Below are positions 15,959-54,705 of a stretch of 64,000 nt of DNA, piece after piece; the first letter of the stretch is position 1, and each line of letters opens with the position of its first letter. Under the pieces are notes generated by a model. That model saw only the letters and a list, made by a program, of their open reading frames with translations. It ran no database searches and was not told the origin of the DNA. The stretch is from a virus: positions 50,883-114,882 of IMG/VR virus record IMGVR_UViG_3300022700_000278. The stretch is one strand, 5' to 3'. A program made the position numbers and the translations under genes.

Positions 15959-15972
15959 CCGGGAGATAAGAT

Positions 15973-17379: not shown

Positions 17380-17391
17380 AGTGAAACAAAC

Positions 17392-18696
17392 ATGACTATT
17401 AAAAAACCAATCGGCAACGGCGAAATTGAAATTTGTCCTGACGGGAGAACCAGAACTCTCTCTAACCTTGATATTTACGTAAACGGCTCAACAGGCTCTG
17501 ATACTACTGGTAATGGTTCTTCTGGTTCGCCCTACGCCACGATCACGCGGGCGTACGAAGACGTGCCGTACTGCATCGCCCACGCTGTCCATATCCACGT
17601 CGCCGCCGGCGCGTACACCGACTTCCCCGACGTGATCGAAAACGACGTCACGGCGAGCGGCCAGATCGTCATCGACGGGTCGGCAGCGCTCGCAGACGTC
17701 GCCACAGGCCTTGCCATCGCGGGCGGCGGCTGGTCCGTCTCGTTGGCAGAGGTTGCGGGTATCATCACCGAGGCCAGCGGCGGCCTCACGCCCGACGCAT
17801 TCCGCAACAAGTTCATCCAGTTCACGGACGGTCCGCGTGCCGGGTTGCTCGCGACCGTCGCCAAAAACACGGCCACCGAGATCGTGATGGGGTGCCATTC
17901 GACGGCACCCGTCGCCGGAGACGCGTTCAAGATCGTCGAACCGGGCGTAAGCATCACCGTCGCCAAGGACATTGAGGTACGGGGGAACGTCGCGCTGGTC
18001 GGTATCGACTTCGACAACGCGCCGAACCTGCTCACGGTCTTGGCCGGGTCCAAGTTCGTCAACGCCTGTTCGCAGATTTCAGGCGGCAACGCTGGCGGAT
18101 TCATCGCCGGATTCCGGCACGACACGGATTCGCGGGTCGACTGCCGTGGCCAGAACCTGCTCGCAGCCGACGTCGCGGGCTTGCTCACGACCGGGGAGTC
18201 CTGCGCCGTGTTCGACTGCGTTACCCTGTCTCTGGGTTGGCTGCGGGCCTTCCAGGCAGACGGCAGTGTGTTCTGCCGAGGCCCCGCAAACATTCAGGAA
18301 TGCGTGTCGATGGACGGCTACCTGTACGCGGAATGGGCAAACAGCAAACCTTTGTTCACCGACGTCTATCGGGACAGCGCGAACTATGGGGTGTACCTCG
18401 CGACCGGGGCCGAGGCGCACATCACGCGCCTGTTCGTCGAGGCTGGTACCGATGCGGTGTACCTCAGCAACGCGTGCAAGGCGTACATGGATGGTGTTGA
18501 CGGTACTGCGGCAAACGTGAGCGGTCATTCCGTCATGGTCGGGCGCGGTGCGCGCGCCGTCGCCAAGAAGTCTAGCTGCACCTTGGTTGGCACGACCGGG
18601 CAGGTCGGATGGGGCAACGGTGCGGCGTCCGTCGCATGGCCCAACCAGGACGTCGCCGTAACAGACGCTGTCGACGCAACTGTAGTCGGCGTGTGA
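17392..18696 (+). CDS. Right-handed beta-helix spike/depolymerase-like protein, paralogue 3
   Basis: 434 aa, ATG 12 nt after the previous stop. Here the A+T-rich head is longest: it runs through D-I-Y-V-N-G-S-T-G-S-D-T-T-G and switches to G+C-rich sequence exactly at S-P-Y-A-T-I (about 17530), where 17 bases are identical to the same place in paralogue 2. The body is the most G+C-rich of the three. It shares the motif A-G-L-L-A-T-V-A-K-N ... G-D-A-F-K-I-V-E-P. Role as receptor-binding or depolymerising spike is inferred from fold and neighbours. Confidence 0.7.
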   Translation: MTIKKPIGNGEIEICPDGRTRTLSNLDIYVNGSTGSDTTGNGSSGSPYATITRAYEDVPYCIAHAVHIHVAAGAYTDFPDVIENDVTASGQIVIDGSAALADVATGLAIAGGGWSVSLAEVAGIITEASGGLTPDAFRNKFIQFTDGPRAGLLATVAKNTATEIVMGCHSTAPVAGDAFKIVEPGVSITVAKDIEVRGNVALVGIDFDNAPNLLTVLAGSKFVNACSQISGGNAGGFIAGFRHDTDSRVDCRGQNLLAADVAGLLTTGESCAVFDCVTLSLGWLRAFQADGSVFCRGPANIQECVSMDGYLYAEWANSKPLFTDVYRDSANYGVYLATGAEAHITRLFVEAGTDAVYLSNACKAYMDGVDGTAANVSGHSVMVGRGARAVAKKSSCTLVGTTGQVGWGNGAASVAWPNQDVAVTDAVDATVVGV

Positions 18697-28251: not shown

Positions 28252-28295
28252 CTGGCCAAAAGTGATAGAATAGACAAAGATTGGGAGCTTCTAGC

Positions 28296-29837
28296 ATGCT
28301 CGATTATCCTTTTAATTGGAACTGGGTTTTGAAGGTCGATAGTTCTGGCGGCCGAATAAAGAGAGTTCCTATGTCAACATCGTATAGAGCCTCTTCTCTT
28401 AGAGGCCCTAACGACGCAAACAAACTTAGGTCTTTCCAAAAGGAAGTACAAAGCGATCTCGCTAGTTTGACTGGTATTGTCAACAACACAATAAGACCAG
28501 TATTAAACTCTTTGCCTGCTGGCGGAGCAGATAGCCGATGGAGTCTTCGGTCTGAGATTGATTGTTATTCCTATGGTGTCCAAGGCTCAACTCTATTTGT
28601 TTTTAACAGCGCAAACAATACCTTTGCCGATGGTAGATATTGGAGCAGCGAAGAAAATCGACCATATACTATTGCAGAAAAGATAGAAGACCATGATGGT
28701 CGGATTAGCGAGCTAGAATCAATTGCAAATACTGACGTTGTTTCATCTGGTTCTATAGACCTGCAAGATCTCTGGAGAGCTGTTGGCGCAAATTATCAGA
28801 GCGGGACAAAAACAAGCTGGACAAATAGCTTAGATGCTAGGGTTGGCCGCTTAGAATGTCATGACTCTCAGTTAGCTCCTGATTTATATGGTGATTCACG
28901 AGCCACTACAGGTGGATATACGACCCCCTCTAACACTATAGAAAAGTATGAAGGGTACAACAGTGTAAGCGGCGATCCTGGCTGGGGAGGCTGGTCTTGG
29001 GCTGGTTCTTGTGATAAGACACAGTCGTTTGGAGTAGCTGAGTATGTTCATTATTTAGCTCTTCTTCACGGAATAGATGTGTCTAGCGGGGAGGATCCGT
29101 GGAAACTTGATCACGATCCTTCGCTTGGTGGCTCTATTTCTCTACCTCTTTCGCAAGGGCCAACTGACATCAGAAGCTCTGTTTTTACAACAAGAAGCAG
29201 AACAGATCCAGTATCTGATTCTTTACTATATGACCTAGGTCGAGTTCGATACGAGCTAGAAAGACTAAGAGGAACCGACTGGAGTACAGGAAACCAGACA
29301 GGGCCATTTATTTCTAATTGGCCTGGTGCTGGTGACAACGAGCAATCATTATACTTACATATCAACTATACAGGCTCAGGAACTCCAAGTATTTCCAATC
29401 CTCATGGTGTTCATTATACAGAGACCGATGCAGATACTCAGTTTAATGCTGTTGCCTCTTTTGTTGGTCAGAATGCTATAGGCGACAATACTACGAACTA
29501 TTCAGCTCATGTTGGCGCGCTCAGTCATATTGCTGATGGCGATTCTCTCGAGCTTGCTCTTGCTAAAGTTGACAGTGCTACGCCTGTTTCTATCCAAAGA
29601 TATCAAATGTTAGTTTCTAGATCTTCTATGACAGAGGAAGAAAGAGAAGATACTGCTATTGCTGTTTCGCACAACCTTGGACAGTATCCAATTGTTAATG
29701 TATTAGATATGGATCCAGAAGAATTGAATCCCTATACTGCTTCTTGGACAAGAGACTTAAATATTGAACACATAAATGTAAATGAGTTTCATATTTATAC
29801 CGGGGCAGAAGATGTCCTGATCGTTTGGATTGGATAA
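28296..29837 (+). CDS. Fibre-like structural protein, 513 aa
   Basis: The frame is open from a TTG at 28281, but GGGAG at 28283-28287 lies 8 nt before ATG 28296, so the ATG is chosen. The N-terminus (L-D-Y-P-F-N-W-N-W-V-L-K-V-D) and repeated short stretches of I-x-x-L-E-S-x-x-N-T resemble a trimeric fibre with coiled-coil pieces. Near the C-terminus, S-H-N-L-G-Q-Y-P-I-V-N-V-L-D and an ending V-L-I-V-W-I-G match the short tip domain often found in tail fibre proteins. Receptor binding is inferred. Confidence 0.6.
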   Translation: MLDYPFNWNWVLKVDSSGGRIKRVPMSTSYRASSLRGPNDANKLRSFQKEVQSDLASLTGIVNNTIRPVLNSLPAGGADSRWSLRSEIDCYSYGVQGSTLFVFNSANNTFADGRYWSSEENRPYTIAEKIEDHDGRISELESIANTDVVSSGSIDLQDLWRAVGANYQSGTKTSWTNSLDARVGRLECHDSQLAPDLYGDSRATTGGYTTPSNTIEKYEGYNSVSGDPGWGGWSWAGSCDKTQSFGVAEYVHYLALLHGIDVSSGEDPWKLDHDPSLGGSISLPLSQGPTDIRSSVFTTRSRTDPVSDSLLYDLGRVRYELERLRGTDWSTGNQTGPFISNWPGAGDNEQSLYLHINYTGSGTPSISNPHGVHYTETDADTQFNAVASFVGQNAIGDNTTNYSAHVGALSHIADGDSLELALAKVDSATPVSIQRYQMLVSRSSMTEEEREDTAIAVSHNLGQYPIVNVLDMDPEELNPYTASWTRDLNIEHINVNEFHIYTGAEDVLIVWIG

Positions 29838-29838
29838 T

Positions 29839-31482
29839 ATGGTATCAGTAAACCTAGACAGAGAGAACAGAGGAAAAGTAAACGCTGTCAGGAGAGTGCC
29901 TGTTTCTTCTTCTGATAAAGGAAATCTTTGCATGCACGAGAACACGGGGCATCTCTATACCCGGCGAGTCTCGAGCGGTTCCTTGCAAGACTTTTTTAAT
30001 ATTTGTTCTGATGTCACGTATGTTCCAAATGCTACAGAACTAACTACTTTGCTGTTAGATGATACTCCCAGAATTTTGACGCTTGGTGCAAAAAATTATC
30101 AAATGCCATCTGGCCCTCTTATTATTACTGCCCCCAAGGTGGTTGTTGGTAAGGCTACTGGAGAATCTATCTTAAAATTTACGTGGGACCCAGGAAGAAG
30201 TTTGTATGATTTGTATATTAATTCTGAAAGTGTTTGGTTTCATGATCTTACGCTAATGCGGACACAAGACGACACTCCGAATCACTTTGTGTTTATTGCC
30301 AATGCCAACAACAGCGGTTTTAATAATTGTTATATTGGTGGGGGAAGCACCAATCCGACAGAGAATTTAATAAAAGTGTCCGAATCAGATTATGTAAGCG
30401 TGAATAACTCTTTCTTTAATGTCGCCACTACAACCAAGGACGCTTCTCTTCTATATGCGGATAATTCTGATCATATAAAGATTGATCGTTGTGTCGCTGA
30501 TGATCAAGTTGCTACTAGAGCAATTAAATTAGATCAATGTGACTACTTTTATATAAACAGATCCAAGTTTTCTAACCACAGTTCAATTGATAGTAATGCT
30601 GGAATTGACTTGTCTAGAAGCGATCATGGATCAATAGAGAATACTCATATCAACATTCATTCTTTTTCTGGCCTTGCAAACAGCAATGCCCTTCGAACTG
30701 CTACAACAGGCGGAACATATTGCAAAGATGTTAGAATAAATTCTTGTAGCTTCACATTAGACCAAGGCGACGACTATACCCCAGTAGATGTGCCCTTGGT
30801 TTCTTTGTGGGGAGACCATATTTCAGCGTCTAACTCTTATGTTTATGCTCAATATATGGGCAAGACAGAGACTTTAGAAACAAATATTACAAGTCGACCT
30901 GTAATCATGATGCGTGGAGACAATGTCTCTCTGCAAAGCAGTGAGGTCCGAGCAGCAAATTGCCGATGTGCAATTTTGGTAGATGCTAATGATGCTGATC
31001 TTTCTGGTGCAAATGGTGCCGGTACCAGAATTAGAGGGAATTATATTGGGGAGTTTGGGATGGATCATTCCGACACAAACCCTGGTGGAGCAAATAGAAT
31101 AGACAGCAACGGAATCTTGCTAACTGATATAGAGTCAGTTGGCGCCACTCCTCTTCCGTGTTCTACTGGTGTTATTGCTGAAAATGTTATTGTTGGCGAC
31201 CCAACATTACACAGTACTGCTATTACTGGATGTCCACATAATGATTATTCTGATTCTGTTCATGCGTTGTATTGGGCTATCAGCAATAACGTTATATACT
31301 GCGATCCTCCTAGCGGAGCACAAATATTTGGTATTAAAACTACAGAAATTGATAGCTCGGTAATGCTGGGCAACCTTGGCGCACAGTCTGGTGCTGCTGT
31401 GCTTGACTATTCGGAAGGAACCAACAATACTAGCGAGTATGGTTCTACAAATGACACTGAAAGTACTGGAGCGAACATATAA
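29839..31482 (+). CDS. Right-handed beta-helix (pectin-lyase-like) tailspike-type protein
   Basis: ATG 29839 lies one base after the preceding TAA; an in-frame TTG 9 nt earlier has no ribosome site. The product is about 547 aa. From about residue 65 to 480 it shows repeating coils of ~20-25 residues with strand-turn-Asn patterns (for example H-F-V-F-I-A-N-A-N-N-S-G-F-N-N-C, Y-V-S-V-N-N-S-F-F-N, H-I-K-I-D-R-C), the signature of parallel beta-helices. Unlike the trio at 14.7-18.7 kb it has ordinary phage composition and lacks the D-I-Y-V-D-G opening. Glycan binding or cleavage is likely; catalytic residues not assigned. Confidence 0.7.
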   Translation: MVSVNLDRENRGKVNAVRRVPVSSSDKGNLCMHENTGHLYTRRVSSGSLQDFFNICSDVTYVPNATELTTLLLDDTPRILTLGAKNYQMPSGPLIITAPKVVVGKATGESILKFTWDPGRSLYDLYINSESVWFHDLTLMRTQDDTPNHFVFIANANNSGFNNCYIGGGSTNPTENLIKVSESDYVSVNNSFFNVATTTKDASLLYADNSDHIKIDRCVADDQVATRAIKLDQCDYFYINRSKFSNHSSIDSNAGIDLSRSDHGSIENTHINIHSFSGLANSNALRTATTGGTYCKDVRINSCSFTLDQGDDYTPVDVPLVSLWGDHISASNSYVYAQYMGKTETLETNITSRPVIMMRGDNVSLQSSEVRAANCRCAILVDANDADLSGANGAGTRIRGNYIGEFGMDHSDTNPGGANRIDSNGILLTDIESVGATPLPCSTGVIAENVIVGDPTLHSTAITGCPHNDYSDSVHALYWAISNNVIYCDPPSGAQIFGIKTTEIDSSVMLGNLGAQSGAAVLDYSEGTNNTSEYGSTNDTESTGANI

Positions 31483-31502
31483 TGATAAGGAGAAGCGGAA
31501 TA

Positions 31503-32366
31503 ATGGGCGGAAAAAGCTTAAAAAAAACCAAATCCAAACCTAGAAAAGGAGGCGTAACTAGGGAGGCAGAGCCTTTGAAAGATCAAAAGATTGATAAGAT
31601 TAGCATCAAAGAAAGTGAAACTCTTCCTGTAGAAGACAAAGAATTTGTCAAAGAGAAAATGAAAACCCTTAAAGAATCAGAAAATAAACCAGAACCCGAG
31701 AAGTCACAACCTACTGTCGTATTCGATCATTTTAGAGAGAAGCTAAAAGAATGGGCAGACACTGCTGCTATTGTAGATGTTCAAGAGATCAAAGACGAAG
31801 AAGAGAAGGAGGCAGAGGGATCAGTGGAAAAAGATTACTTTGTTGTGATTGATTTCGAAGCCACATGCTTTAAAAGTCGAAAAGTTTCTAGGGAAGAAAT
31901 GGAAATTATTGAATTTGCAGCAGCCTTGGTCGAGAAAGACACCCTCGACACTGTCGCGGAATTTAATGAATTTGTTCGTCCCGTTATACATCCTGCTCTA
32001 GACGATTTTGCCACAGAGCTTACCACTATTACCCAGGATCAGGTAGACAATGCCTTTACTTTCCCTACCGTTCTAAAACAGTTTGTGAATTGGTTGCAGA
32101 AATATCCTGGTAATAAAACTTTTGCTTCGTGGGGCAGCTATGACAAGAAACAGCTTCTTCAAGATTGTAATACCCATGATGTCGAGTACCCATTTGATGA
32201 CGAGCATGTAAACATAAAAGAAGTATTTCGTCAAAAGCGTGGCTACAAAAGACAATGTGGAGTGCAAACTGCTCTTGGACGTCTCAAAATGCCTTTTGAA
32301 GGAACTCCGCATAGAGGCAGAGACGACGTCCGCAACATCGTTAAAATCATGAGGAAGGCTTGGTAA
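31503..32366 (+). CDS. ERI-1-like DEDDh 3'-5' exonuclease with a charged N-terminal extension
   Basis: ATG 31503 is preferred over ATG 31482 because AAGGAG at 31487-31492 has the correct 10-nt spacing to it. Residues about 1-105 are Lys/Glu-rich and probably disordered. The exonuclease core follows: F-V-V-I-D-F-E-A-T-C (Exo I, Asp and Glu), then F-A-S-W-G-S-Y-D-K-K (Exo II Asp), then H-R-G-R-D-D-V-R-N-I (Exo III His and Asp). This order and the C-F-K insertion match the ERI-1/KapD family of RNA or DNA 3'-5' exonucleases. Lying at the end of the late operon is unusual; it could process RNA or DNA late in infection. Confidence 0.8.
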   Translation: MGGKSLKKTKSKPRKGGVTREAEPLKDQKIDKISIKESETLPVEDKEFVKEKMKTLKESENKPEPEKSQPTVVFDHFREKLKEWADTAAIVDVQEIKDEEEKEAEGSVEKDYFVVIDFEATCFKSRKVSREEMEIIEFAAALVEKDTLDTVAEFNEFVRPVIHPALDDFATELTTITQDQVDNAFTFPTVLKQFVNWLQKYPGNKTFASWGSYDKKQLLQDCNTHDVEYPFDDEHVNIKEVFRQKRGYKRQCGVQTALGRLKMPFEGTPHRGRDDVRNIVKIMRKAW

Positions 32367-32369
32367 GAC

Positions 32370-32582
32370 ATGGCGCTTACAGGAGCCGAAGAAAAGAGAC
32401 TGCGGGAAGCAGAGCAAACTCTTGTCAGAATCAATAAAATTCTGGACGGCGCAGCTAGCAAGAACCAGTTAAATAGGCTATATGTTTTATTGCTGAGAGA
32501 AGTAGAAGAGTTGTCTAATGCTGCTAGCGAGATAGAAGAAAAAGTTAATGAAGTTTTAGAATATGCCCGAAAGGCCCAATAA
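32370..32582 (+). CDS. Small coiled-coil protein, 70 aa
   Basis: ATG 3 nt after the exonuclease stop. Almost entirely helical with heptad spacing (E-E-K-R-L-R-E-A-E-Q-T-L through V-N-E-V-L-E-Y-A). No membrane segment. It is the last + strand gene before the convergent junction. Function unknown; may oligomerise or partner with the exonuclease. Confidence 0.6.
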   Translation: MALTGAEEKRLREAEQTLVRINKILDGAASKNQLNRLYVLLLREVEELSNAASEIEEKVNEVLEYARKAQ

Positions 32583-32613: not shown

Positions 32614-33780
32614 TTATAAGGCATAGCTACGAATAATCTCTGCCACTTCTTTACACATTGATCTCGTCATAGTATTTCCAGAGGGGATACATAGTATCTT
32701 GCGCCATACCGATTCGGTTTTTTCAAGCCTGAATGTCTGACATCTAGAATATGGGACTTGCAAGTGTCCTGGCATCCACAAAGGTCTTGTTTGAACACCT
32801 TCGGCATAAAGTTTTGTCATTAGTTGTTCTCCGCTCATTCCAAACACGTCTTTGTCAATTGTTATGGCAGTAAGCCAAAAGTTGGCCTCTTCTTTGTTTG
32901 GCGGAGAAAAGACTTTGATGCCTGGAACTTCTCTCAATTCTTCATGGTATGTTTTCCACCATAAACGATGGTTGGCAAGAAAAGTGTCCAGGTGTTCCAT
33001 TTGTGAACAAGCAAGGGCTGCATTCATATTGGTCAAGCCCAAATTGTATCCTACATCATTGTGGACATAGCGTACGGTGTCATCCTTTGCTTGTAAAGAT
33101 AAATACCGGGCACGTTTGCCGTATTCTTCATTGTTTGTAATTAGCATGCCTCCGCCTCCAGCAGTCACTATTTTATTAAAACTGAAGGAAAAGATTCCCA
33201 TGTCTCCATGGGTACCTGCATGCTTGCCTTTTCCTGCGCCACTTATACACCATGTTCCCAAAGCTTCTGCTGCGTCTTCTACGATGGTTAAACCAAAGTT
33301 TTTGGCGGTCTTTCGAAGGGCTATAGGAGCGTCAGAAAATGTTCCAAGGATATGAACAGGAAGAATAGCTTTTATGGTTCTTCCAGTAAGTTTATTTTGA
33401 AGTCCTAGAGGAGTCTGAATGCATTCCTCTTCGATAAATTGTTGTGTTTTGCCCCAGTCTAAATTTAGATCAAAGTCTTGGCAATCCATAAAGACGGGAT
33501 GAGCGCCTACGTGTTTGATAGCATTGATTGGAGCGATAAAGGTTAAAGAAGGTATTAAAACTTCGTCTCCCGACCCTACTCCCGCCAATCTAAGAGCCAG
33601 CATGAGTCCAGAAGTGCCTCCATTAACAGCAATAGCGTACTTAGCGCCAGTGTAGGCTTTAACCTGTTGCTCGAGCTTGTCTACGTAGTCTCCTGCATAG
33701 GAAATCCACCCTGTGTCTAGACAGTTCTTTATATACCTCCAGGCGTTTTTGCTAATCTTTGGTTCTGCTAATGGTATCAT
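32614..33780 (-). CDS. LegC-family PLP aminotransferase (nucleotide-sugar 4-aminotransferase)
   Basis: 388 aa, DegT/DnrJ/EryC1 fold. The sequence follows the LegC subgroup: opening I-P-L-A-E-P-x-I-S, then C-L-D-T-G-W-I-S-Y-A-G, D-E-V-L-I-P-S-L-T-F-I-A-P, V-E-D-A-A-E-A-L-G and the PLP-lysine region F-S-F-S-F-N-K-I-V-T-A-G-G-G-G-M. Enzymes of this group transfer an amino group from glutamate to a 4-keto-6-deoxy nucleotide sugar, as in bacillosamine or legionaminic acid routes. AAAGGA lies 9 nt before the ATG. The dehydratase that would make its substrate is not in the window and may be the host's. First in function, last in order, of the glycan cassette. Confidence 0.88.
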   Translation of the reverse strand: MIPLAEPKISKNAWRYIKNCLDTGWISYAGDYVDKLEQQVKAYTGAKYAIAVNGGTSGLMLALRLAGVGSGDEVLIPSLTFIAPINAIKHVGAHPVFMDCQDFDLNLDWGKTQQFIEEECIQTPLGLQNKLTGRTIKAILPVHILGTFSDAPIALRKTAKNFGLTIVEDAAEALGTWCISGAGKGKHAGTHGDMGIFSFSFNKIVTAGGGGMLITNNEEYGKRARYLSLQAKDDTVRYVHNDVGYNLGLTNMNAALACSQMEHLDTFLANHRLWWKTYHEELREVPGIKVFSPPNKEEANFWLTAITIDKDVFGMSGEQLMTKLYAEGVQTRPLWMPGHLQVPYSRCQTFRLEKTESVWRKILCIPSGNTMTRSMCKEVAEIIRSYAL

Positions 33781-33819
33781 CAGTAAAGTCCTTTATTTCT
33801 TTTTCTGAGACGTGATCTA

Positions 33820-34359
33820 TCATAACTTTTTATATGCTTCTTCTGCAAGTCTCAATATCTTATCTTTTGGTCTCTTTTTGATTGGTTTGGCAGGAGATCC
33901 AATATTAATTGTCCATGGTTCTATATCTTTTGTTACAACAGAACCAGAACCAACCACAGCTCCTTCTCCAATAGTTATGTTTGGAAATACGATTGTATTT
34001 GTAGCAAGGAAAGCAAATTTTTTTAAAGTAACAAAAGATCTTGTTACATTTCTTAGTCTGTCAGGCACAGTTGGTCCCATTAGCCCCGTTCCGTCTGTTG
34101 CGTCTATTCCCGTAATTATTCTACTTCCAGCTGCAATGTTTGCAAAATCTTCAACTCTAGTGCGACCTCCTCCGCTTATAGAAACATAAGGCGCTATATG
34201 TACAAACCATCCAATGATAGTGGAGATACCACCCATGATATGAACATATTCGCTAATCATATCATGGCCCTTTAAAACTACTTTTTCTGGTGATATAATT
34301 GTTACTGGCTCAAAAATTCGAACCTCAGGGCCAACTTCTTTAAGTAGTTCTACTTCCAT
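33820..34359 (-). CDS. Left-handed beta-helix acetyltransferase (sugar O/N-acetyltransferase type)
   Basis: 179 aa. Hexapeptide repeats of the LbetaH fold run from about residue 18 to 160 (for example I-G-W-F-V-H-I-A-P-Y-V-S-I-S-G, I-A-A-G-S-R-I-I-T-G, then I-G-E-G-A-V-V-G-S-G-S-V-V-T-K-D-I), ending in the typical W-x-I-N-I-G-S-P-A-K-P-I-K. This places it with WbbJ/maltose-acetyltransferase-like enzymes that use acetyl-CoA. Beside a LegC-type aminotransferase, the natural inference is acetylation of the new 4-amino group, but O-acetylation is equally possible. Overlaps the sulfotransferase upstream by 10 nt. Confidence 0.85.
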   Translation of the reverse strand: MEVELLKEVGPEVRIFEPVTIISPEKVVLKGHDMISEYVHIMGGISTIIGWFVHIAPYVSISGGGRTRVEDFANIAAGSRIITGIDATDGTGLMGPTVPDRLRNVTRSFVTLKKFAFLATNTIVFPNITIGEGAVVGSGSVVTKDIEPWTINIGSPAKPIKKRPKDKILRLAEEAYKKL

Positions 34360-35111
34360 TTATAATCTTTTTCTAAAAACTCATACAATGCTTGATTGTA
34401 ATCTTTGTAGAAGGATTGCAGCATTTTAAATGCTTTTTCGTCTATTGGTTTCTCAGGGCTGCTCTTTCTTATATGGGTAAAATTTTTTGGATAAAATTCT
34501 TTTAGTCCTAGAAATTTTATAACATCACAATATGGTCTTTTGGGAGACTCAAAGAAGTCTTCTGACTTGATAACTAAAATTTGAGAAGAATCAAAAAGTT
34601 CACAGCACAATGGAACTGTTTTGATATAGCATCCTTTATCAATTAAATAGTAGTCGTTTTCGTGGGCGGTATCCAAGTAGTTCAGAAATGACGGATATCG
34701 TGTTTCCCACTTTGGGGCTATTTTCGCAATATGATGAAAATGAGAATAAAGACGATAGACAGGGTCTCTAAGCAAAATAATTATTTTAATATCTGGTAAA
34801 GTTGCTTTGATACGTTGCATTGAGAGGGCTCGATAGAGATATGTAGGAGATGCCTCTCCAGTAATTTGTCCTGGTTCTAAAACGGGGAACCTGTTTCGAT
34901 ACCAATCTAGTCCTTTGGACCAATGGCGATCAAAGAACCTTACTTCTTTTTGCTCAAGAGAAAGCTTTCCACCAGTATAGTCTACTTCACTATTTGGAAG
35001 TTTTCGTGCGGGGCAAATTTTTGGGTGCTTAACTAAATCTTCAAAGAAAGAGGATGTCCCACATTTGGTTTCTCCAACTAAAAGGAAGGAGGGAGTAGAT
35101 GGCTTAGACAT
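34350..35111 (-). CDS. PAPS-dependent sulfotransferase (carbohydrate type)
   Basis: 253 aa. The 5'-phosphosulfate-binding P-loop is F-L-L-V-G-E-T-K-C-G-T-S-S-F near residue 10, with the conserved F-F-D-R-H-W and G-E-A-S-P-T-Y-L-Y motifs following, and the 3'-phosphate-binding motif I-I-I-L-L-R-D-P-V-Y-R-L-Y-S-H-F at about 118-133. This is the architecture of heparan-type sulfotransferases and bacterial/viral relatives that move sulfate from PAPS to a sugar hydroxyl or amine. Overlaps both neighbours by 8-10 nt. No signal peptide, so it should act in the cytoplasm. Confidence 0.88.
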   Translation of the reverse strand: MSKPSTPSFLLVGETKCGTSSFFEDLVKHPKICPARKLPNSEVDYTGGKLSLEQKEVRFFDRHWSKGLDWYRNRFPVLEPGQITGEASPTYLYRALSMQRIKATLPDIKIIILLRDPVYRLYSHFHHIAKIAPKWETRYPSFLNYLDTAHENDYYLIDKGCYIKTVPLCCELFDSSQILVIKSEDFFESPKRPYCDVIKFLGLKEFYPKNFTHIRKSSPEKPIDEKAFKMLQSFYKDYNQALYEFLEKDYKWK

Positions 35112-35952
35112 AAGAAATTGTTTCTAAAAGAAGTTTTTCTTTTGAAATTGATTTTTCGAGTTGAAGTATGGTTATTTGTGATGCATCATAAAATCGTTTT
35201 TTTACTTTTTTAGCAAAAACATCTTTTCTTTCATGAAAAACAACTGTTTTTGTACAACCATCAGAAACAGAGCAGAAAAAAGCTGAATTCGAGGCTAATA
35301 AAAATTCTGCTGCTCGTGTTAATTTCACAGCAGCTCTTCCCGTTGTTTTACCAACAAGATTAAACAACCTTTTTCTTTGATAAGAAAACTTTTCTTCAAA
35401 GAATTTAGGATTTTGAGAATTTCTTATTTTTGCGTGACTTCCTCCTACTATGACGACATTAAGATCCTTTTCTTCTACAACCATGTCTATAAATGGAATA
35501 TAGTTTTCAGGAGAAAAAAATATGCGATTTTTGCCTCCAGCGAAAGGATGAATTACTATATATCTACCTTCCTGCTGAATCCGATCAATTGTTTCCTGCT
35601 CTTTTTTAGAGAGAAAAACATCTATATTTGGTTGCTTTTTTAAGTTGTTTCGTTTTCCAAATTCTTCTAGAGATTTATACTTTTTTGCTTCTTCTTTAAT
35701 GTTTTTGCATTCTTTTATTTTGAGCGGAGATATCCATGGGTGTATATCAATAGAATCAATCCGAGGATCTAATTCAAAAAACCTAGAGGCTTCTTTTTGA
35801 ACTGGATGACAAATTAATTTAATCTTGGCTTCAGGAATTTTTGTTTTCAATTCCTGAAGATAGCCGAAACCAAAGGGGAAGCTGTGTGGAGAAAAATACC
35901 CTAAAAGATGATCTCCCAATCCCCCAGCAGTATGTAAAAAAAAGTTATTCAT
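35104..35952 (-). CDS. GT9-like (heptosyltransferase-type) protein, short form A
   Basis: 282 aa from ATG 35952, chosen because it makes an 8-nt ATGAATAA overlap with the upstream stop; the ATG 33 nt earlier has no ribosome site. N-terminal glycine-rich loop H-T-A-G-G-L-G-D-H-L-L-G-Y, and in the second half Y-I-V-I-H-P-F-A-G-G-K and V-V-I-V-G-G-S resemble the GT-B donor-binding half of ADP-heptose:LPS heptosyltransferases. The usual late motif (T-P-D-T-S-x-x-H-L-A-G) is weak (L-L-A-S-N-S-A-F-F-C). Paralogous to 36412-37299. Activity uncertain. Confidence 0.7.
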   Translation of the reverse strand: MNNFFLHTAGGLGDHLLGYFSPHSFPFGFGYLQELKTKIPEAKIKLICHPVQKEASRFFELDPRIDSIDIHPWISPLKIKECKNIKEEAKKYKSLEEFGKRNNLKKQPNIDVFLSKKEQETIDRIQQEGRYIVIHPFAGGKNRIFFSPENYIPFIDMVVEEKDLNVVIVGGSHAKIRNSQNPKFFEEKFSYQRKRLFNLVGKTTGRAAVKLTRAAEFLLASNSAFFCSVSDGCTKTVVFHERKDVFAKKVKKRFYDASQITILQLEKSISKEKLLLETISYV

Positions 35953-36157
35953 TTTTTTCAAAAAATTCATCGATAGAAGAAACAATCTTTACTCGTTGGG
36001 CATTTAAAGAAACAACTTGTTCACATAGTTCTTCAATTTCTTCGTCAGATCTTTCTTTGTCCTTTTCTTTTCCCCGTATGTTTTCTTCTATGTGCCAAAT
36101 TTTTAAATGTACAACAGCAAGCTTGTCAATCATTTCTCCAATAGAATAGGCTAGCAT
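35945..36157 (-). CDS. Small helical protein, tandem paralogue 1 (70 aa)
   Basis: Starts at ATG 36157, one base after the upstream TAA and 5 nt after AAGGAGG; the longer open frame has no ribosome site. Conserved pattern with the upstream neighbour: G-E-x-I-D-x-L near the start, I-W-H about 12 residues later and L-N-A-Q-R near the end. The shape recalls the short DUF4254-type proteins that accompany glycosyltransferases, but I hold that comparison loosely. It sits between the two GT9-like genes, so an accessory role in glycan synthesis is a fair guess. Confidence 0.65.
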   Translation of the reverse strand: MLAYSIGEMIDKLAVVHLKIWHIEENIRGKEKDKERSDEEIEELCEQVVSLNAQRVKIVSSIDEFFEKNE

Positions 36158-36158
36158 G

Positions 36159-36410
36159 TTAGCCTCCTTCACAAAAATTAATTTTTGTTTCGTTTGCGCC
36201 AGAATTAAACTTTTTGTCAATTTCCCATCTGACAGCCGAACGTTGTGCGTTTAGTTCTCTAATGTTCAGAAAAATTTCTACTTTTTCTTTTGTTCCTAAT
36301 CCTTTGTCTTTTTTTACTTCACCAGAAAGAGTTTTGATCTTTGTTGCTTTGTGCCAAATTTGATTGTTTATGTTAATAAGGGAATCTATTACTTCTCCTG
36401 TTGTCTTCAT
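36159..36410 (-). CDS. Small helical protein, tandem paralogue 2 (83 aa)
   Basis: ATG with AAGGAG 8 nt upstream. Shares with its downstream neighbour T/I-G-E-x-I-D-x-L, x-I-W-H and L-N-A-Q-R in the same order and spacing apart from a longer Lys/Gly-rich middle. This is a clear tandem duplication of a two-helix protein inside the glycan cassette. The stop is one base before the next ATG. No enzymatic motif. Confidence 0.7.
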   Translation of the reverse strand: MKTTGEVIDSLININNQIWHKATKIKTLSGEVKKDKGLGTKEKVEIFLNIRELNAQRSAVRWEIDKKFNSGANETKINFCEGG

Positions 36411-36411
36411 A

Positions 36412-37299
36412 TTATAACTCCTTGATTGTTCTAAAAACTTCTTTTGTTACTTCTTCAGGCGGGCGAAGATTTTTTTCGTTGCCAAGGCTAATAATTTTAT
36501 GTTTTTTTCCTTCCCACCGTTGTCCTTGGTTGAATCTTTTTCTTAAGTTTTTTTCAGGCTTCTCGGAAACGAGAAGAATTGTTAGTTTGTTATGAAGCCA
36601 AGAAGCGACAGAATAAGCAGACCAGCTACCAATAAAGTATTCTTGGTGTTTTGCAAGATGGTAGTATAGCCTAGGGTTCCCTTTGTTAACTAAATTAAAC
36701 AAGCCTGGTCGCTCATAATCAAACCTTTCTTTCATTATGAGAACTTTTTTTTCATTTTGGGTTAATCGTTTATGATCGTTCCCTATAACAACTGTATTGA
36801 CTTTTTTGTCGTCAACCAACCAGTCTATCAAAGGAATATATTCTTTTTCTGTCCCAGAACACCTTCGTCTCAGCCCCGCAAAGGGGTGAATTAATACAAA
36901 CGGACCTGCCCCTTGTATTTTTTTTAAGACTTTTCTGTCCTGTTCGTTAAGAAAAATTTTTGGACGTTTAAAAGTCAGTGAAGATAACAATCTTTTCTGA
37001 GTTGAAAGTCGTTTTGCCTGGTTACAATGAGCTTTTTCAAATGATTCTCTATTTTTTGGAGAAACTGCTCTAAAATTTTCTGCTTTTGTTATATATGGAT
37101 TATACTTAATAAGCTCTAGTACGTTTGAGTTATGTGAGGTGCCTATAACATTTATCTTTACTTGTGGATATCTTTTTTTTAAACTTTCAATATAGCCCCA
37201 ACCGGCTTTACCTTTATGGTAAGTCCAGAAAGCATCTCCTAGCCCTCCCCCAAGGGAAAGAAAAACACTTTCTGGTAATTTTTGCTTTCTTACCACCAT
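36412..37299 (-). CDS. GT9-like (heptosyltransferase-type) protein, short form B
   Basis: 295 aa, overlapping the upstream sulfotransferase by 10 nt. Same layout as 35104-35952: an early S-L-G-G-G-L-G-D-A-F-W-T-Y loop, G-W-G-Y-I-E-S-L-K-K-R-Y-P, then F-V-L-I-H-P-F-A-G-L-R-R and V-N-T-V-V-I-G-N-D. The late region H-Q-E-Y-F-I-G-S-W-S-A-Y-S-V-A-S replaces the canonical GT9 motif. The two are tandem paralogues separated by the pair of tiny helical genes. Probably a GT-B transferase with changed specificity, or a non-catalytic partner. Confidence 0.7.
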   Translation of the reverse strand: MVVRKQKLPESVFLSLGGGLGDAFWTYHKGKAGWGYIESLKKRYPQVKINVIGTSHNSNVLELIKYNPYITKAENFRAVSPKNRESFEKAHCNQAKRLSTQKRLLSSLTFKRPKIFLNEQDRKVLKKIQGAGPFVLIHPFAGLRRRCSGTEKEYIPLIDWLVDDKKVNTVVIGNDHKRLTQNEKKVLIMKERFDYERPGLFNLVNKGNPRLYYHLAKHQEYFIGSWSAYSVASWLHNKLTILLVSEKPEKNLRKRFNQGQRWEGKKHKIISLGNEKNLRPPEEVTKEVFRTIKEL

Positions 37300-38138
37300 A
37301 AAAGATTTTTATACCCAACTTGTTTCATCAGCTTCTTGAGCTTGTCTTGTCTGCACAGTTCGTCAAACTCAAGCGACATAAAAGATCTTGTGTGTTCTAT
37401 GTCACCAGCTAAATATTTCCTCTTGAAGTTTTCCCACTGAGGCTTGGGAGAAGAGTTTCTTTTCTTTTCTATTAGCTGATAGGTCCTATTTTGTGGCTCC
37501 CATTCCAAAGTCTTTTTCTTCGCTTTTTCATTAAAGTTCAAACCGCAAAAGTCATACAGGTGTTTGATTAATTTTATTCGACCGTTTTTTGTTTTAGACT
37601 GTTCTGCATCTATTGGCAATAGAAAAGCATGTTTCTTTGGCACAGAAAGCATTTCTGTATATTTTTGTATCCACGTTTTTAATCTTTTTTGTCTAGAAAC
37701 ATTATCCATTTCATTTGGGTTGTTATGCTCTTCGTCTTCTCTCCATAACTTGGAATGAAGAGATAATAGTGGATCTCTTATCGGAATAACAATTTTTACT
37801 TCTGGCTTTTTCTCAATCAAACTTTTGATAAACCAAGAACTTGGTTTGTGATGATGCTCGTGAGCAATAACAATCTTTTTCCCTGCTAGCTGTTCTTCTT
37901 TACAAGCCGACAAAACACCTTCGCTAAACCATTCGGTACAAATTTTTTCCGACGGCTTGGTAAAGTCTGAAAGCTCTATGGGCTTGGTTTTTACATATCG
38001 CCGATGATTTAGTTTCTTATGTTTTTCCCACAAGCTTCCTATTCTAAAAGCTTCTTCTGTGTGAAACCCAGCAGCAAGCATAGAACTAGCAAAGAAAGTA
38101 CCAGTGTGCTGAATGCTATAAACAAAAACCTTTTTCAT
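37290..38138 (-). CDS. Second sulfotransferase-like protein
   Basis: 282 aa. P-loop Y-S-I-Q-H-T-G-T-F-F-A-S-S-M at the N-terminus and V-K-I-V-I-P-I-R-D-P-L-L-S-L-H-S-K-L at about residues 118-135 correspond to the 5'-PSB and 3'-PB motifs of PAPS-binding sulfotransferases. It is only distantly similar to the sulfotransferase at 34350-35111, so it probably has a different acceptor. ATGA overlap with the double GT9 gene upstream indicates coupling. It could also be a related P-loop kinase; the I-R-D-P motif favours sulfotransferase. Confidence 0.75.
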   Translation of the reverse strand: MKKVFVYSIQHTGTFFASSMLAAGFHTEEAFRIGSLWEKHKKLNHRRYVKTKPIELSDFTKPSEKICTEWFSEGVLSACKEEQLAGKKIVIAHEHHHKPSSWFIKSLIEKKPEVKIVIPIRDPLLSLHSKLWREDEEHNNPNEMDNVSRQKRLKTWIQKYTEMLSVPKKHAFLLPIDAEQSKTKNGRIKLIKHLYDFCGLNFNEKAKKKTLEWEPQNRTYQLIEKKRNSSPKPQWENFKRKYLAGDIEHTRSFMSLEFDELCRQDKLKKLMKQVGYKNLLWW

Positions 38139-40084
38139 TTGATTTTCTCTAGTAAAGCTTCATAGACATCTTTAACTGCAATGTTTTCCATACATTTAGA
38201 GTGTCCTTTTGCTGAGCCAGTCTTTTTGCATGGCATATTCTGGTTTCTCCAACAAGGAACGCAGTCCATTTTGCTACTCACCACAAGACAATTCTTGTAG
38301 TGTTTGCAGCGTGCTCGAGGATCAATCGGACCAAATAAAGCTATAGTAGGGAGGTCAGCACTTCCGGCAAGATGCAAGAAAGAAGTGTCTGGAGTAAGCA
38401 TTATATCTGCGCTTAGAGCTATCGCAGCAGCTTTCCGGAAGGGAAACCCGCCAGCATCTACAGTGTTTGGATATAAAAACTCTCTAGAATGATCAAGAAT
38501 AATTACTTGAAACTTATCAACTAACAAAGGAATTAAATCATTATATTTTTCAATTGGCCAGTTTCGGTATTCTTCTGCACAACGTAAAGCAACAGCCAGT
38601 CTCGGCTTCTCTGTTTCTGGAAGAAAAGTTTTTGCCCAAGAAAGTTCTTCTTCTGTCGGCCAGTAAGTACTAGACTTTTTCTTTATAATCTTAGAAACCC
38701 CTAGTGCCTCTGCAAAGACCTCTACTCTAGTTTTGTCTACTGGTTTTCTACTACGAACCTTGTTAGCTTCGTAGTGAGCGCATGGAGTAGAGATGTCGTA
38801 CACGATAGAATATCTGTTGTTTTTAATTTCCTTATCAGCGTCTAGCAGCTTATCTATCGTTGGACTATTTTCTGCTGCTGGCCAATACTTTTTTGGAAGC
38901 GCGAAGTAAACTTTCTTTGTAGGATATTTATCTTTTAATGCCTCTATGGCAGTCATGCTTTGTGTAATATCTCCAAATCCTCCGAAGTGTCTTTTCACTA
39001 GTACAATATTGTCAGGCTTGAAGCCTTTTCTAGAGTTTACTGTTATCACTTTCTGTACCTTGGTTTTTTCTGCAAGCTTTGTTTTAATTGCATCATGTAC
39101 CATTTCAGGATGCAGTTCTTTCATACAGGTAATTTTTCCACCACACGTTGGGGTATACCAACATCCTTCACAAGGAAGACCTGCTGTAATAGTAGTGCAG
39201 TTTGCATAGTGGTTTGTTCTAGACTCAGGAGGCACAGATCCAAACAGTGACACTGTTTTCTTTTGTAGCGCGCCAGCCAAATGTAACAATGAACTATCAG
39301 GAGTGACTACAACGTCACACTGTTCTAATATAGCCCCAGTGTATCGTAAGTTATAGTTACAAATAAATGTTTGGCGAGGGTTAAAGTGGTTCTTCTTCTC
39401 CCAATGGAACAATGCTACCCTAACCTTAGGGTCTTGCGTAAGAAGCTCTACAAGTCGCTTGTTGTGTTCCAGAGGCCAAGTACGTCTATTGTCATTGCTT
39501 TTTACCTGAAGTCCAACTAAAGTAACGTCCTTGCGGTTGTGGGGGAGCGCTTTTTGCTTTATTAGTTCCTCTGCCCATTCTTTTTCGTCATCAGTAACAA
39601 CATATGTAGGAACAGGGTCAGAAGAAACATCTACCCCAAGTTGTTCCGCAAACATATCTATTCGATTAGGTGGGACCTGACCTTTTTTTTCTCGTGCCAA
39701 ACCAGTCGCTGTTATATCTGTAAATAAATCATAGTCTCTTGCTGTTGCTGTTTTATAGCTAATTAGTTCGTCTACAAAAGGATTGTTTCGAATCACGTCG
39801 CCTAAAGCTCCGTTAGAATAAACCAAATCTGTAGCATATATTAAGTGACAGTTGGGAAGTAGTCTTTTGATGTGCTTGAGCATTGGTGTGCTCATTATCA
39901 CATCGCCAATACCTCCTAGTCTTCTGTAGACACAAACCTTTGGCTTCTTCCCTCGAAGCAGCCCATCTAGTCTGCTGAAAACTTTTGGCTCGGCACGAGC
40001 CTTAGAATGTACGTTTAAAACACGTCCTTTTGATCTCTGCTCTCCATCTGGAACGAGAATGCCTTTTTTAAGCCTGGCTACCAT
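38135..40084 (-). CDS. Double-headed GT9 glycosyltransferase (two fused heptosyltransferase-type modules)
   Basis: 649 aa made of two complete GT-B GT9 modules. Module 1 (about 48-350) has R-R-L-G-G-I-G-D-V-I-M-S-T-P and V-T-P-D-S-S-L-L-H-L-A-G then V-S-L-F-G; module 2 (about 365-649) has K-R-H-F-G-G-F-G-D-I-T-Q-S and L-T-P-D-T-S-F-L-H-L-A-G then I-A-L-F-G-P. Both end in a Cys-rich tail (C-E-G-C-W ... C-G-G-K-I-T-C and C-V-P-C-W ... C-K-K). Normal GT9 enzymes are about 320-350 aa, so this is a tandem fusion that may add two sugars. Upstream of it the cassette begins. Confidence 0.9.
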   Translation of the reverse strand: MVARLKKGILVPDGEQRSKGRVLNVHSKARAEPKVFSRLDGLLRGKKPKVCVYRRLGGIGDVIMSTPMLKHIKRLLPNCHLIYATDLVYSNGALGDVIRNNPFVDELISYKTATARDYDLFTDITATGLAREKKGQVPPNRIDMFAEQLGVDVSSDPVPTYVVTDDEKEWAEELIKQKALPHNRKDVTLVGLQVKSNDNRRTWPLEHNKRLVELLTQDPKVRVALFHWEKKNHFNPRQTFICNYNLRYTGAILEQCDVVVTPDSSLLHLAGALQKKTVSLFGSVPPESRTNHYANCTTITAGLPCEGCWYTPTCGGKITCMKELHPEMVHDAIKTKLAEKTKVQKVITVNSRKGFKPDNIVLVKRHFGGFGDITQSMTAIEALKDKYPTKKVYFALPKKYWPAAENSPTIDKLLDADKEIKNNRYSIVYDISTPCAHYEANKVRSRKPVDKTRVEVFAEALGVSKIIKKKSSTYWPTEEELSWAKTFLPETEKPRLAVALRCAEEYRNWPIEKYNDLIPLLVDKFQVIILDHSREFLYPNTVDAGGFPFRKAAAIALSADIMLTPDTSFLHLAGSADLPTIALFGPIDPRARCKHYKNCLVVSSKMDCVPCWRNQNMPCKKTGSAKGHSKCMENIAVKDVYEALLEKIK

Positions 40085-40108: not shown

Positions 40109-40720
40109 TTACATCTGGACGTGTTCGATCATAATCGAGGGAGAGAACTTTTTGTCATCTTCATAGTTCTCTTTTGAGGTATAGTAAGCTGTTGCTTCGG
40201 TATAAAAGTTCCCTGCATTAGCGCTATTGATCTTCCAGTTTAGCTTGACAACATTAACTTCTGGCGTCTTTGTGGAAAATAGCGCTGCCATATCCTCTGC
40301 TAATTCTGTAGGATTGCGAGGCTTGCTAAAGCGTAGTTTGTCTATTAGCTTGCCAGTATATTGTCTAGCGTCTTCGTATTCACCGAAAGAAAGCTCAATT
40401 CCAATAATATTTGGACGGCTTCTCATGAGTGTTCTAAAGTATTCCGCTAATTCTTCTTCTTCTAATTTGCGGATTGCGATAGTTCCTGGGAGGCCACTAT
40501 ATTCCCAATTGCCATTTTCGTCTTGTTCATATTGATATAGTATCTTCTTTCGTTTCGCACGCATATCCTTTATTTGCTGTACAATTTCTCTTTGATTGTC
40601 TGCATCGGAAATTTCCATTCGAGTAGGATTGCGAGCAATAAGCCTAGTCGATGGATTTACCCTTGCATCGGGATCTACTTTATCAGGGGAAACTTTTTCT
40701 GGAGTTCTTTTTGCGACCAT
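40109..40720 (-). CDS. Unknown protein, 203 aa, between the glycan cassette and the sigma-like gene
   Basis: ATG with GGAAGG 8 nt upstream, 2 nt after the sigma-like gene's stop. The first ~45 residues are Pro/Asp/Arg-rich and probably disordered; the rest is a mixed alpha/beta domain with no known motif (G-I-E-L-S-F-G-E-Y-E-D-A-R-Q-Y near the centre). Tight coupling suggests it works with, or is simply co-expressed with, the upstream factor. Not recognised. Confidence 0.6.
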   Translation of the reverse strand: MVAKRTPEKVSPDKVDPDARVNPSTRLIARNPTRMEISDADNQREIVQQIKDMRAKRKKILYQYEQDENGNWEYSGLPGTIAIRKLEEEELAEYFRTLMRSRPNIIGIELSFGEYEDARQYTGKLIDKLRFSKPRNPTELAEDMAALFSTKTPEVNVVKLNWKINSANAGNFYTEATAYYTSKENYEDDKKFSPSIMIEHVQM

Positions 40721-53315: not shown

Positions 53316-53522
53316 CTACTGCTTTCTATGAAACGTCTTGGTAAAAGGCTCTTTGTTTGGGCATGTTATTTTAATAATAATAGTGCTTCGTGAACTGTCT
53401 TGCTCTGTTACTTTACATTTAGGATATTCTGCTTCTACTCTACGCTGAGCAACAGAGGTGCAGCATACAAATATTACAATCGTAGCCAGAAAAAGCAGTG
53501 TTTTTATACTTCTAAAACCCAT
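53316..53522 (-). CDS. Small exported or lipoprotein-like protein, 68 aa
   Basis: Starts inside the end of the upstream ClpP-like gene (19-nt overlap). Residues 1-22 form a signal-type segment: basic F-R-S-I-K, hydrophobic L-L-F-L-A-T-I-V-I-F-V, then C-C-T-S, which resembles a lipobox. The mature part has two Cys and would be periplasmic or outer-leaflet. Candidate for superinfection exclusion, spanin-like or host-envelope role; nothing in sequence decides. Confidence 0.6.
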   Translation of the reverse strand: MGFRSIKTLLFLATIVIFVCCTSVAQRRVEAEYPKCKVTEQDSSRSTIIIKITCPNKEPFTKTFHRKQ

Positions 53523-54109
53523 TGTCTTGTTTCCTTAATTAATGGAAAACCAATATGGTCTGCAAATCCATATTTTATTGCTTCTTTTGCATTTAGGTAA
53601 AGTTCTCCATTTGAATCTTTTAGCAAGTTGTTAAATTGTTTCTGTGTCAAGTTGGACTTTTTTATTACTCTTTTTATCCACTCTTCATTCATTCTAGAAA
53701 CTGTATTTAAGTAACGCTTCATATCTTCGCTGTCCATAGATATTGCTGTAACCTGAACATTATGAAACATCAATCTAGAAGCAGGAGCCATCCATCTTTC
53801 TTCTCCTAAAGAAAATAGTATTGCTCCTGCAGATAACGACTTCCCAGCATTAACTGTTACTACAGGTTTAGTAGAGCATTCAATTATTTCTGCCATACTA
53901 AATAAAGCGTCAAGATCTCCTCCGTTGGAGTCAACATATACAACAATTTTTTCAATCTTATCGTCGCTTAGATAACAAGAAAAATCATAAAAGAATTCTT
54001 TTGCTGTATCTTCATCAAAGTTATTAACCCAAATTACAGGTAGTTCGTTTTCGTCTTGCATAGCGAGAGGCACAGAAGCTTCTCCTATGACAGCAGAGTG
54101 TTTCGTCAT
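53504..54109 (-). CDS. ClpP-family serine protease, paralogue A
   Basis: 201 aa. V-D-S-N-G-G-D near residue 60 begins the fold; the nucleophile region is G-K-S-L-S-A-G-A with Ser93, the catalytic His is in L-M-F-H-N-V (His116), and an Asp is available in L-K-D-S-N-G-E. The order and spacing fit ClpP peptidases (about 195-207 aa). It is one base-coupled (TAATG) to a second ClpP-like gene. Role: regulated degradation, prohead-type processing or host proteome control; no ClpX partner is encoded here, so a host unfoldase may be used. Confidence 0.85.
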   Translation of the reverse strand: MTKHSAVIGEASVPLAMQDENELPVIWVNNFDEDTAKEFFYDFSCYLSDDKIEKIVVYVDSNGGDLDALFSMAEIIECSTKPVVTVNAGKSLSAGAILFSLGEERWMAPASRLMFHNVQVTAISMDSEDMKRYLNTVSRMNEEWIKRVIKKSNLTQKQFNNLLKDSNGELYLNAKEAIKYGFADHIGFPLIKETRQWVLEV

Positions 54110-54705
54110 TAAACAGCCTCACATTCCCAGACTTCAGATCTACTTATTTTCGGCACTCCAATATGATCTATAAAACCATATTCTTTTGCTTTCTCTGCTC
54201 CAAAAAACCATTCTCCTTCGTGTTCTTTTATTTTTAATATAATTTCTTTTGTCGACAACTGTGCTTTTTTGGCAATCAGAGAAAAAATTCTATTATTTCG
54301 TTCTTCTAAAGCATCTAATTCTCTTTTCAATGTTTTTGTATTGCCGGTGATATCGCTTGATGCGTGATGTATTTGCATCATACAATTTCTACTCATCCAT
54401 CTTGTGCCACTTGGACCAAGTGCTAAAAAATATGCTGCAGCAGAACAAACTAAGCCAAGTCCTACTATATGTATTTCTTTTGATGAATTATTTATTGTGT
54501 CTACCATAGCTAACAAAGGATCAACTTCTCCTCCATATGAAAAAACATTGATGAATATGGAGGTCAGGTTTTGATCTGCTTCTAGCTCTTGCATTCTTTT
54601 AATGAAAACGTCTGCCGCCTCAAAGGTGAAGTCACATATGTTTATTATTGGAGCTTCATCTTTCTCCACTTCTAGTGGAACGCGCTTGAATTCCCATGTG
54701 TCCAT
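54109..54705 (-). CDS. ClpP-family serine protease, paralogue B
   Basis: 198 aa, ATG with AGGAAG upstream. F-S-Y-G-G-E replaces the usual S-x-G-G, the nucleophile region is L-V-C-S-A-A-A-Y (Ser88) and the His is in M-Q-I-H-H-A-S (His113). The pair A/B are clearly diverged from each other, as in organisms with mixed ClpP1P2 rings. A hetero-oligomeric 14-mer is therefore plausible. Unlike typical prohead proteases, both lie in the replication block. Confidence 0.83.
   Translation of the reverse strand: MDTWEFKRVPLEVEKDEAPIINICDFTFEAADVFIKRMQELEADQNLTSIFINVFSYGGEVDPLLAMVDTINNSSKEIHIVGLGLVCSAAAYFLALGPSGTRWMSRNCMMQIHHASSDITGNTKTLKRELDALEERNNRIFSLIAKKAQLSTKEIILKIKEHEGEWFFGAEKAKEYGFIDHIGVPKISRSEVWECEAV

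Follow-up and report, generated by a model that had tools for sequence, protein, structure and literature searches.

A candidate glycosylation island with two predicted sulfotransferases beside the tail-fibre genes of a contractile-tailed phage

Introduction

Virus-encoded glycosylation is already known. The nearest published arrangement to the locus described here, which is a nine-gene cassette at positions 32614-40084 of a 64,000-nucleotide stretch of phage DNA (the window, i.e. bases 50883-114882 of the 114,882-base IMG/VR record IMGVR_UViG_3300022700_000278), is that of the fibril-glycan clusters of Moumouvirus australiensis and Cotonvirus, as described in PMC10117803. There, the M. australiensis cluster is listed with an aminotransferase, an acetyltransferase, a 4,6-dehydratase, a sulfotransferase, an adenosine 5'-phosphosulfate (APS) kinase, and transferases, and sulfation of the sugars is put forward by the authors as a possibility. 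Like the phage cassette, this Megavirinae cluster pairs sugar enzymes with a sulfotransferase and glycosyltransferases, and it is tied to capsid fibrils. However, Moumouvirus and Cotonvirus are giant eukaryotic viruses with their own sulfate adenylyltransferase/APS kinase, whereas the phage island has no APS kinase. Conversely, the phage island is set apart by a GT9 tandem, a DUF4254-type pair, and tail-fibre neighbours.

The Mimivirus viosamine pathway and the Pseudomonas syringae Vio island resemble the phage island in another respect, i.e. they use an aminotransferase to make a 4-amino-4,6-dideoxy sugar that is N-acylated. In the passages of PMC10117803 that describe them, they include methyltransferases and glycosyltransferases, their product ends up on the virion fibril or on flagellin, and no sulfotransferase is mentioned for them there. 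The phage locus differs from what is summarized in that it points to a GDP sugar and to GT9-type transferases. There are also viral contigs in which gmd and rfbE (perosamine synthetase) are annotated (PMC8226683). Sulfotransferases dependent on 3'-phosphoadenosine 5'-phosphosulfate (PAPS) have been found in tailed phages, namely in OM43 and Synechococcus phages, where their role was called unclear (PMC10580990), and in S-SCSM1 (BFVD). These were reported as single genes, whereas the island contains two different ones within a conserved glycan locus. Almost nothing was found in the literature on a phage sulfotransferase combined with a glycosyltransferase. What is new here is a conserved sulfation-bearing locus in a clade of tailed phages.

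Results

Gene content of the cassette

The window belongs to a contractile-tailed phage. The first 50 kb of the record encode a terminase, a major head protein, and a tail sheath, and further virion genes lie on the plus strand up to ∼32.4 kb of the window. The record also has a leftward replication block (primase/helicase, DnaE-type polymerase, ribonucleotide reductase, RecA, Dam, and two ClpP-like genes), and the cassette is the downstream end of this block, meeting the tail genes head-on. It consists of nine open genes on the minus strand, packed end to end, with a gap of at most 39 bases and an overlap of at most 10 bases at the junctions. An original prediction, made from the sequence of the window by itself, had described eight contiguous, overlapping genes, which was right for the contiguity and wrong for the count. 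In order of transcription, the genes are as follows.

38135-40084, minus strand: GT9x2, tandem GT9-type glycosyltransferase, 649 amino acids (aa); PF01075, two domains; the sole invariant component of the locus among relatives
37290-38138, minus strand: ST2, divergent PAPS-type sulfotransferase by predicted fold and motifs, 282 aa
36412-37299, minus strand: GT9a, diverged GT9-fold glycosyltransferase by predicted fold and profile, 295 aa
36159-36410, minus strand: hel1, small helical protein, 83 aa; paralogue of hel2
35945-36157, minus strand: hel2, small helical DUF4254-like protein, 70 aa from a conserved ATG; PF14063, 1.9e-7
35104-35952, minus strand: GT9b, diverged GT9-fold glycosyltransferase; paralogue of GT9a (28% identical), start taken from the alignment
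34350-35111, minus strand: ST1, PAPS sulfotransferase of the heparan-sulfate 3-O-sulfotransferase type, 253 aa; PF00685, 1t8t, motifs
33820-34359, minus strand: LbH, AntD-like N-acyltransferase, 179 aa; PF00132, 3vbk/3vbi
32614-33780, minus strand: AT, DegT/DnrJ/EryC1 sugar aminotransferase, 388 aa; PF01041, TIGR04181, 3bn1

The starts of hel2 and GT9b are probably the downstream ATGs at 36157 and 35952. A promoter scan of the cassette gave the same result as shuffled background, and therefore no cassette promoter is claimed. Defence-system models produced no useful match.

Two sulfotransferases and three GT9-type proteins

ST1 was assigned on three features, all of which are present: a domain scoring above the curated cut-off (PF00685, 2e-12, 47.5 bits vs. 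22), a 5'-phosphosulfate-binding K-x-G-T motif (KCGTS at residue 16), and a 3'-phosphate-binding (3'-PB) motif with an R...S spacing of 8 (RDPVYRLYS at residue 115). It resembles heparan-sulfate 3-O-sulfotransferase, matching 3-OST-3 (1t8t) at 3e-19, and its E86 aligns with the Glu of the QITxE stretch in that enzyme. ST2 is more divergent. It falls below the curated sequence cut-off (PF13469, E = 0.016, 15.9 bits vs. 27), has no Pfam, PHROGs, or NCBIfam family above cut-off, and compares weakly with the ST1 profile (E = 0.0025, probability 12%). Its AlphaFold2 (AF2) model, based on an alignment of five phage homologues, is of fair quality (predicted local distance difference test (pLDDT) 79, predicted template-modelling (TM) score 0.81). 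In a fold search with this model, sulfotransferases account for all 21 PDB matches at E ≤ 1e-3, with moderate TM-scores of 0.37-0.49, and the best viral matches (BFVD) are again sulfotransferases, including the one from S-SCSM1. ST2 has a 3'-PB motif, RDPLLSLHS, at 121-129 and a P-loop, HTGT, at residue 11, in which a His occupies the position where Lys/Arg is usual; RDPxLxxx[ST] and HTG[TG] are kept in the five homologues. The predicted fold thus confirms ST2 as a sulfotransferase. That its P-loop might be that of an unrelated kinase, a possibility raised in the original prediction, was set aside, because kinases rank behind sulfotransferases in the fold search.

GT9x2 matches PF01075 with two domains (2.4e-23, 83 bits vs. 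a cut-off of 22). Each half has a GGxGD motif, and the Asp residues D61 and D372 are invariant. GT9a and GT9b have no family in Pfam, PHROGs, or NCBIfam, and are GT9-type as judged by predicted fold and profile similarity. Indeed, the AF2 model of GT9a is confident (pLDDT 92), its best PDB fold matches are heptosyltransferase II (1psw), the GT9 protein 3tov, WaaC, and TibC, and the GT9a/b profile matches GT9x2 with an hhalign E-value of 4e-9. Identity in the fold alignments that relate GT9a to TibC and to the heptosyltransferases of lipopolysaccharide (LPS) is ∼8-14%. TibC glycosylates protein in the cytoplasm. As for hel1 and hel2, five of the nine members of this helical family match DUF4254, with which the pair belongs. 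The pair of helical paralogues, the double GT9 with two further GT9-like proteins, and the co-occurrence of two PAPS-type sulfotransferases in a single phage operon had all been put forward in the original prediction, and each stands, with ST1 identified by family and motifs, ST2 and GT9a by the structure-based search that had been proposed, and GT9b by profile.

The sugar is more likely of the perosamine type

AT is a clear member of PF01041 (E = 1e-85, 288.6 bits vs. a cut-off of 19.8), and its pyridoxal phosphate-binding lysine K203 is invariant among phage homologues, which upholds amino-sugar formation at the level of the enzyme family. The more specific LegC-type name does not hold, since AT scores 408.3 bits on the LegC model TIGR04181, below the curated cut-off of 420 (AT proteins of relatives score 356 and 346 bits). 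When AT is used as a single sequence, its best solved relative is perosamine synthetase (3bn1, 3e-57; 3dr4 is another nearest relative), and with a family profile the 7b0m sugar aminotransferase, the 1o61 group, and perosamine synthetase score close together. LbH is the predicted left-handed β-helix acyltransferase, belonging to the hexapeptide family PF00132 (E = 1e-6), and its best PDB matches are the 3vbk/3vbi series (1e-28) of AntD, the N-acyltransferase of anthrose biosynthesis. N-acylation is likewise upheld at family level. When compared with the point mutants of this series, LbH conserves the equivalent of D94 and has an Ala at the equivalent of Ser84. The substrate specificities of AT and LbH are predictions from sequence. 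A perosamine-type sugar appears likelier than legionaminic acid or heptose, because relatives pair the aminotransferase with a true GDP-mannose 4,6-dehydratase (see below). The heptose-type glycan that had been proposed is not supported: what the cassette shares with heptosyltransferases is the GT9 fold, it contains no heptose-synthesis genes, and it does not reach the equivalog cut-off for ADP-heptose transferase (TIGR02193, 90 vs. 185 bits).

The locus is conserved in related phages

Scans of IMG/VR with ST2, GT9x2, or DnaE alone, or with the GT9a/b pair, returned no relatives because such patterns reach close kin only. Relatives were found through a DnaE alignment search, which identified phages with DnaE proteins 48-56% identical. 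Five of these carry GT9x2 at 44-48% identity, a conservation comparable with that of DnaE, and no full-length copy was found in the more distant DnaE phages searched. Scanning with GT9x2 gave eleven phage records besides the window; one more locus, L115 (the twelfth), matches weakly and in part and is not counted among the eleven (L numbers designate loci). The loci share a fixed frame, consisting of g40723, g40109, GT9x2, a variable set of genes, and g32370, beyond which the opposite strand carries tail-fibre-type genes. The bordering genes in the window are the following.

40109-40720, minus strand: g40109, conserved; upstream border of the island, adjoining GT9x2 in relatives that cover this border
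32370-32582, plus strand: g32370, small and conserved; tail-fibre border of the island, a border that its homologues also occupy in L100, L101, L103, L105, and L114
28281-31482, plus strand: two late genes probably of the tail-fibre/tailspike type (28281-29837 and 29830-31482), candidate acceptors; homologues of gene 28281 flank the island in L100, L101, and L103

The island is covered in full, with both GT9x2 and g32370, in six loci, referred to as complete (the window, L100, L101, L105, L103, and L114). Each has GT9x2, at least one sulfotransferase (6/6), and a further GT9-like gene, and AT is present in four. ST1 occurs in the window, L100, L101, and L105, and ST2 in the window, L103 (two copies), and L114; L102, which is cut at a contig end, holds both. 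The hel1/hel2 pair is kept in L100, L101, and L102. Nine loci continue beyond GT9x2, and six of them contain a GDP-mannose 4,6-dehydratase gene (Gmd, PF16363), whose product scores 474-525 bits in the cases tested, against a curated cut-off of 415. Importantly, all three AT-bearing relatives (L100, L101, and L105) have this dehydratase in the same cassette, whereas the window record has none. Other exchangeable genes encode methyltransferases (FkbM among them), a hydrolase of the GDSL type, a polysaccharide pyruvyl transferase, and a 237-aa family. Identities of the cassette genes to their relatives lie within the range of those of flanking genes.

The comparison of gene order across related phage contigs, which had been suggested as a check, thus revealed the same locus with its linkage conserved rather than scattered homologues, and this conservation excludes chance clustering. 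A set of 50,697 phage records yielded one weak match to ST1, none to ST2 or GT9a, and one to GT9x2 at 24% identity, and no GT9x2 match was found by tblastn in Moorella phage MTATph1, the closest isolate by terminase (31%). A bacterial origin of GT9x2 was also considered, and no donor was found, because the eight matches in bacteria reach 21-29% identity and, where examined, are separate GT9 genes.

Several features of individual loci were recorded in passing. The 237-aa family (L102:1622-2335, L103:13743-14468, L105:15140-15841, and L114:15344-16048; 42-43% identical) has no Pfam or NCBIfam match and is absent from the window. Two Gmd genes carry in-frame intein-like inserts at different sites, one near profile position 118-129 with intein-splicing and homing-endonuclease domains (L101:13809-16034, minus strand), and the other near 180-188 with a LAGLIDADG-like match (L099:8136-10088, plus strand). 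In L104, a transposase-like gene (8827-9972; OrfB type, judged by eye from the N terminus) lies between g40109 and GT9x2.

Other features of the window

A DnaQ-type exonuclease-like gene (phrog_192) is present on the plus strand among the tail genes at 31482-32366, adjoining the island border. Further upstream, four plus-strand genes at 13725-18696 have a G+C content of 0.55-0.58, compared with ∼0.40 around them, and look like recently acquired tail genes; two of them encode similar proteins with a YVxGxTGSDxTGxGSxGSPYATI motif. The two ClpP-like protease genes of the replication block are adjacent (53504-54109 and 54109-54705). Near the record end, there is a hexanucleotide array (AGCCGT, 43 copies) at 63654-63910, and the opposite end of the record begins with a degenerate repeat. 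Because both ends are repetitive, the record probably breaks in repeats and not at true genome ends.

Discussion

Taken together, these findings suggest that the cassette is a virus-encoded glycosylation island, whose soluble enzymes would decorate one of the virion proteins (probably a tail fibre) with a sulfated glycan, a reading that we consider evenly poised. The starting point would be a 4-keto-6-deoxy nucleotide sugar, which most relatives would make with their own GDP-mannose 4,6-dehydratase and which the window phage would probably obtain from its host. AT would aminate it to a perosamine-type 4-amino-4,6-dideoxy sugar, LbH would N-acylate the amino sugar, and the GT9-type transferases would transfer it along with other sugars. 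ST1 and ST2 would then sulfate the glycan using host PAPS. We envisage that the glycan is assembled in the cytoplasm on the virion protein itself, probably on the adjoining tail fibres or spikes, where it may alter receptor contact or shield the virion. The analysis establishes the gene families, their intact motifs, the folds, and the conservation of the locus; the exact sugar, the order of steps, the acceptor, and the benefit are what we infer.

Two gaps in this scheme concern supply. No APS kinase was found in the 13 records, and PAPS should therefore come from the host. Likewise, no dehydratase was found in the window record, and the host should therefore supply the sugar substrate too, unless a dehydratase is encoded beyond the ends of the record (the records of two relatives reach 174 and 198 kb). 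As for the site of synthesis, all cassette products are soluble by hydropathy, with no 19-residue segment exceeding 1.5 on the Kyte-Doolittle scale, and genes for lipid-carrier steps, a membrane-associated initiating transferase, a flippase, or a polymerase were not recognized in any locus, which makes a cytoplasmic glycan on a virion protein most likely. Tail fibres are the best acceptor candidates, because they adjoin the island in every complete locus and because two relatives have additional genes among their tail-fibre-type genes, outside the island and on the tail strand, i.e. a Sulfotransfer_3 gene (L114:17031-18173, minus strand) and a GT25 gene (L100:10909-11652, minus strand).

Three points weigh against a virion glycan. 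The window record, which may be a fragment, lacks both a dehydratase and a PAPS-synthesis gene; the cassette lies on the strand of the leftward replication genes and not on that of the tail genes; and GT9 enzymes of known function mostly act on the LPS core at the cytoplasmic face, which needs no flippase gene either. The second and third points would also suit a different role, in which the enzymes alter the LPS core or another surface glycan of the host during infection, for example against superinfection or against re-adsorption of progeny to debris. The GT9 enzymes WaaC and WaaF act on the LPS core, heptosyltransferase II and WaaC are among the best fold matches of GT9a, and bacterial clusters with GT9 and DegT genes exist (L119). 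However, the lack of recognizable initiating transferase, flippase, and polymerase genes, the tail-fibre border, and the extra glycan genes among the tail genes of two relatives argue the other way, and we regard action on the host surface as unlikely, if still a serious contender.

It is improbable that the cassette is a mixture of auxiliary metabolic genes acquired independently and without a common product. Its content does differ from one relative to another, and huge phages have individual parts without the linkage, such as the GT9x2-like and LbH-like genes that are far apart in LR756511, but all complete loci share borders, a similar gene order, and one strand, as well as a core made up of GT9x2, another GT9-like gene, and a sulfotransferase. 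Finally, hypermodification of phage DNA, with sugars and sulfate added to bases against restriction, is very improbable, because, although phage glycosyltransferases are known in that role (Pyle et al. 2024, as cited in PMC12619734) and nucleotide modification by sulfotransferases has been suggested (PMC10829341), the PF00303 thymidylate-synthase type is absent from the window record and six relatives (records that may be incomplete), the scanned DNA genes hold only a Dam-type methylase, and the substrates of the cassette families are nucleotide sugars and glycans.

Glycosylation and sulfation of a virion protein is thus the reading that we prefer. In its most specific form, it is a tentative one that we would not yet bet on, i.e. 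that a clade of large contractile-tailed phages decorates its own tail fibres with an N-acylated perosamine-type glycan, sulfated by two different sulfotransferases, with strain variants arising by gene swaps within a fixed locus. Phage sulfotransferases have so far been unexplained, and the island would give them a concrete job. Their presence within a conserved glycan locus makes it testable whether the phage glycan is sulfated and where. If this is true, bacterial viruses, like giant viruses, make a private sulfated surface glycan, which would be relevant to receptor contact, adsorption, and shielding.

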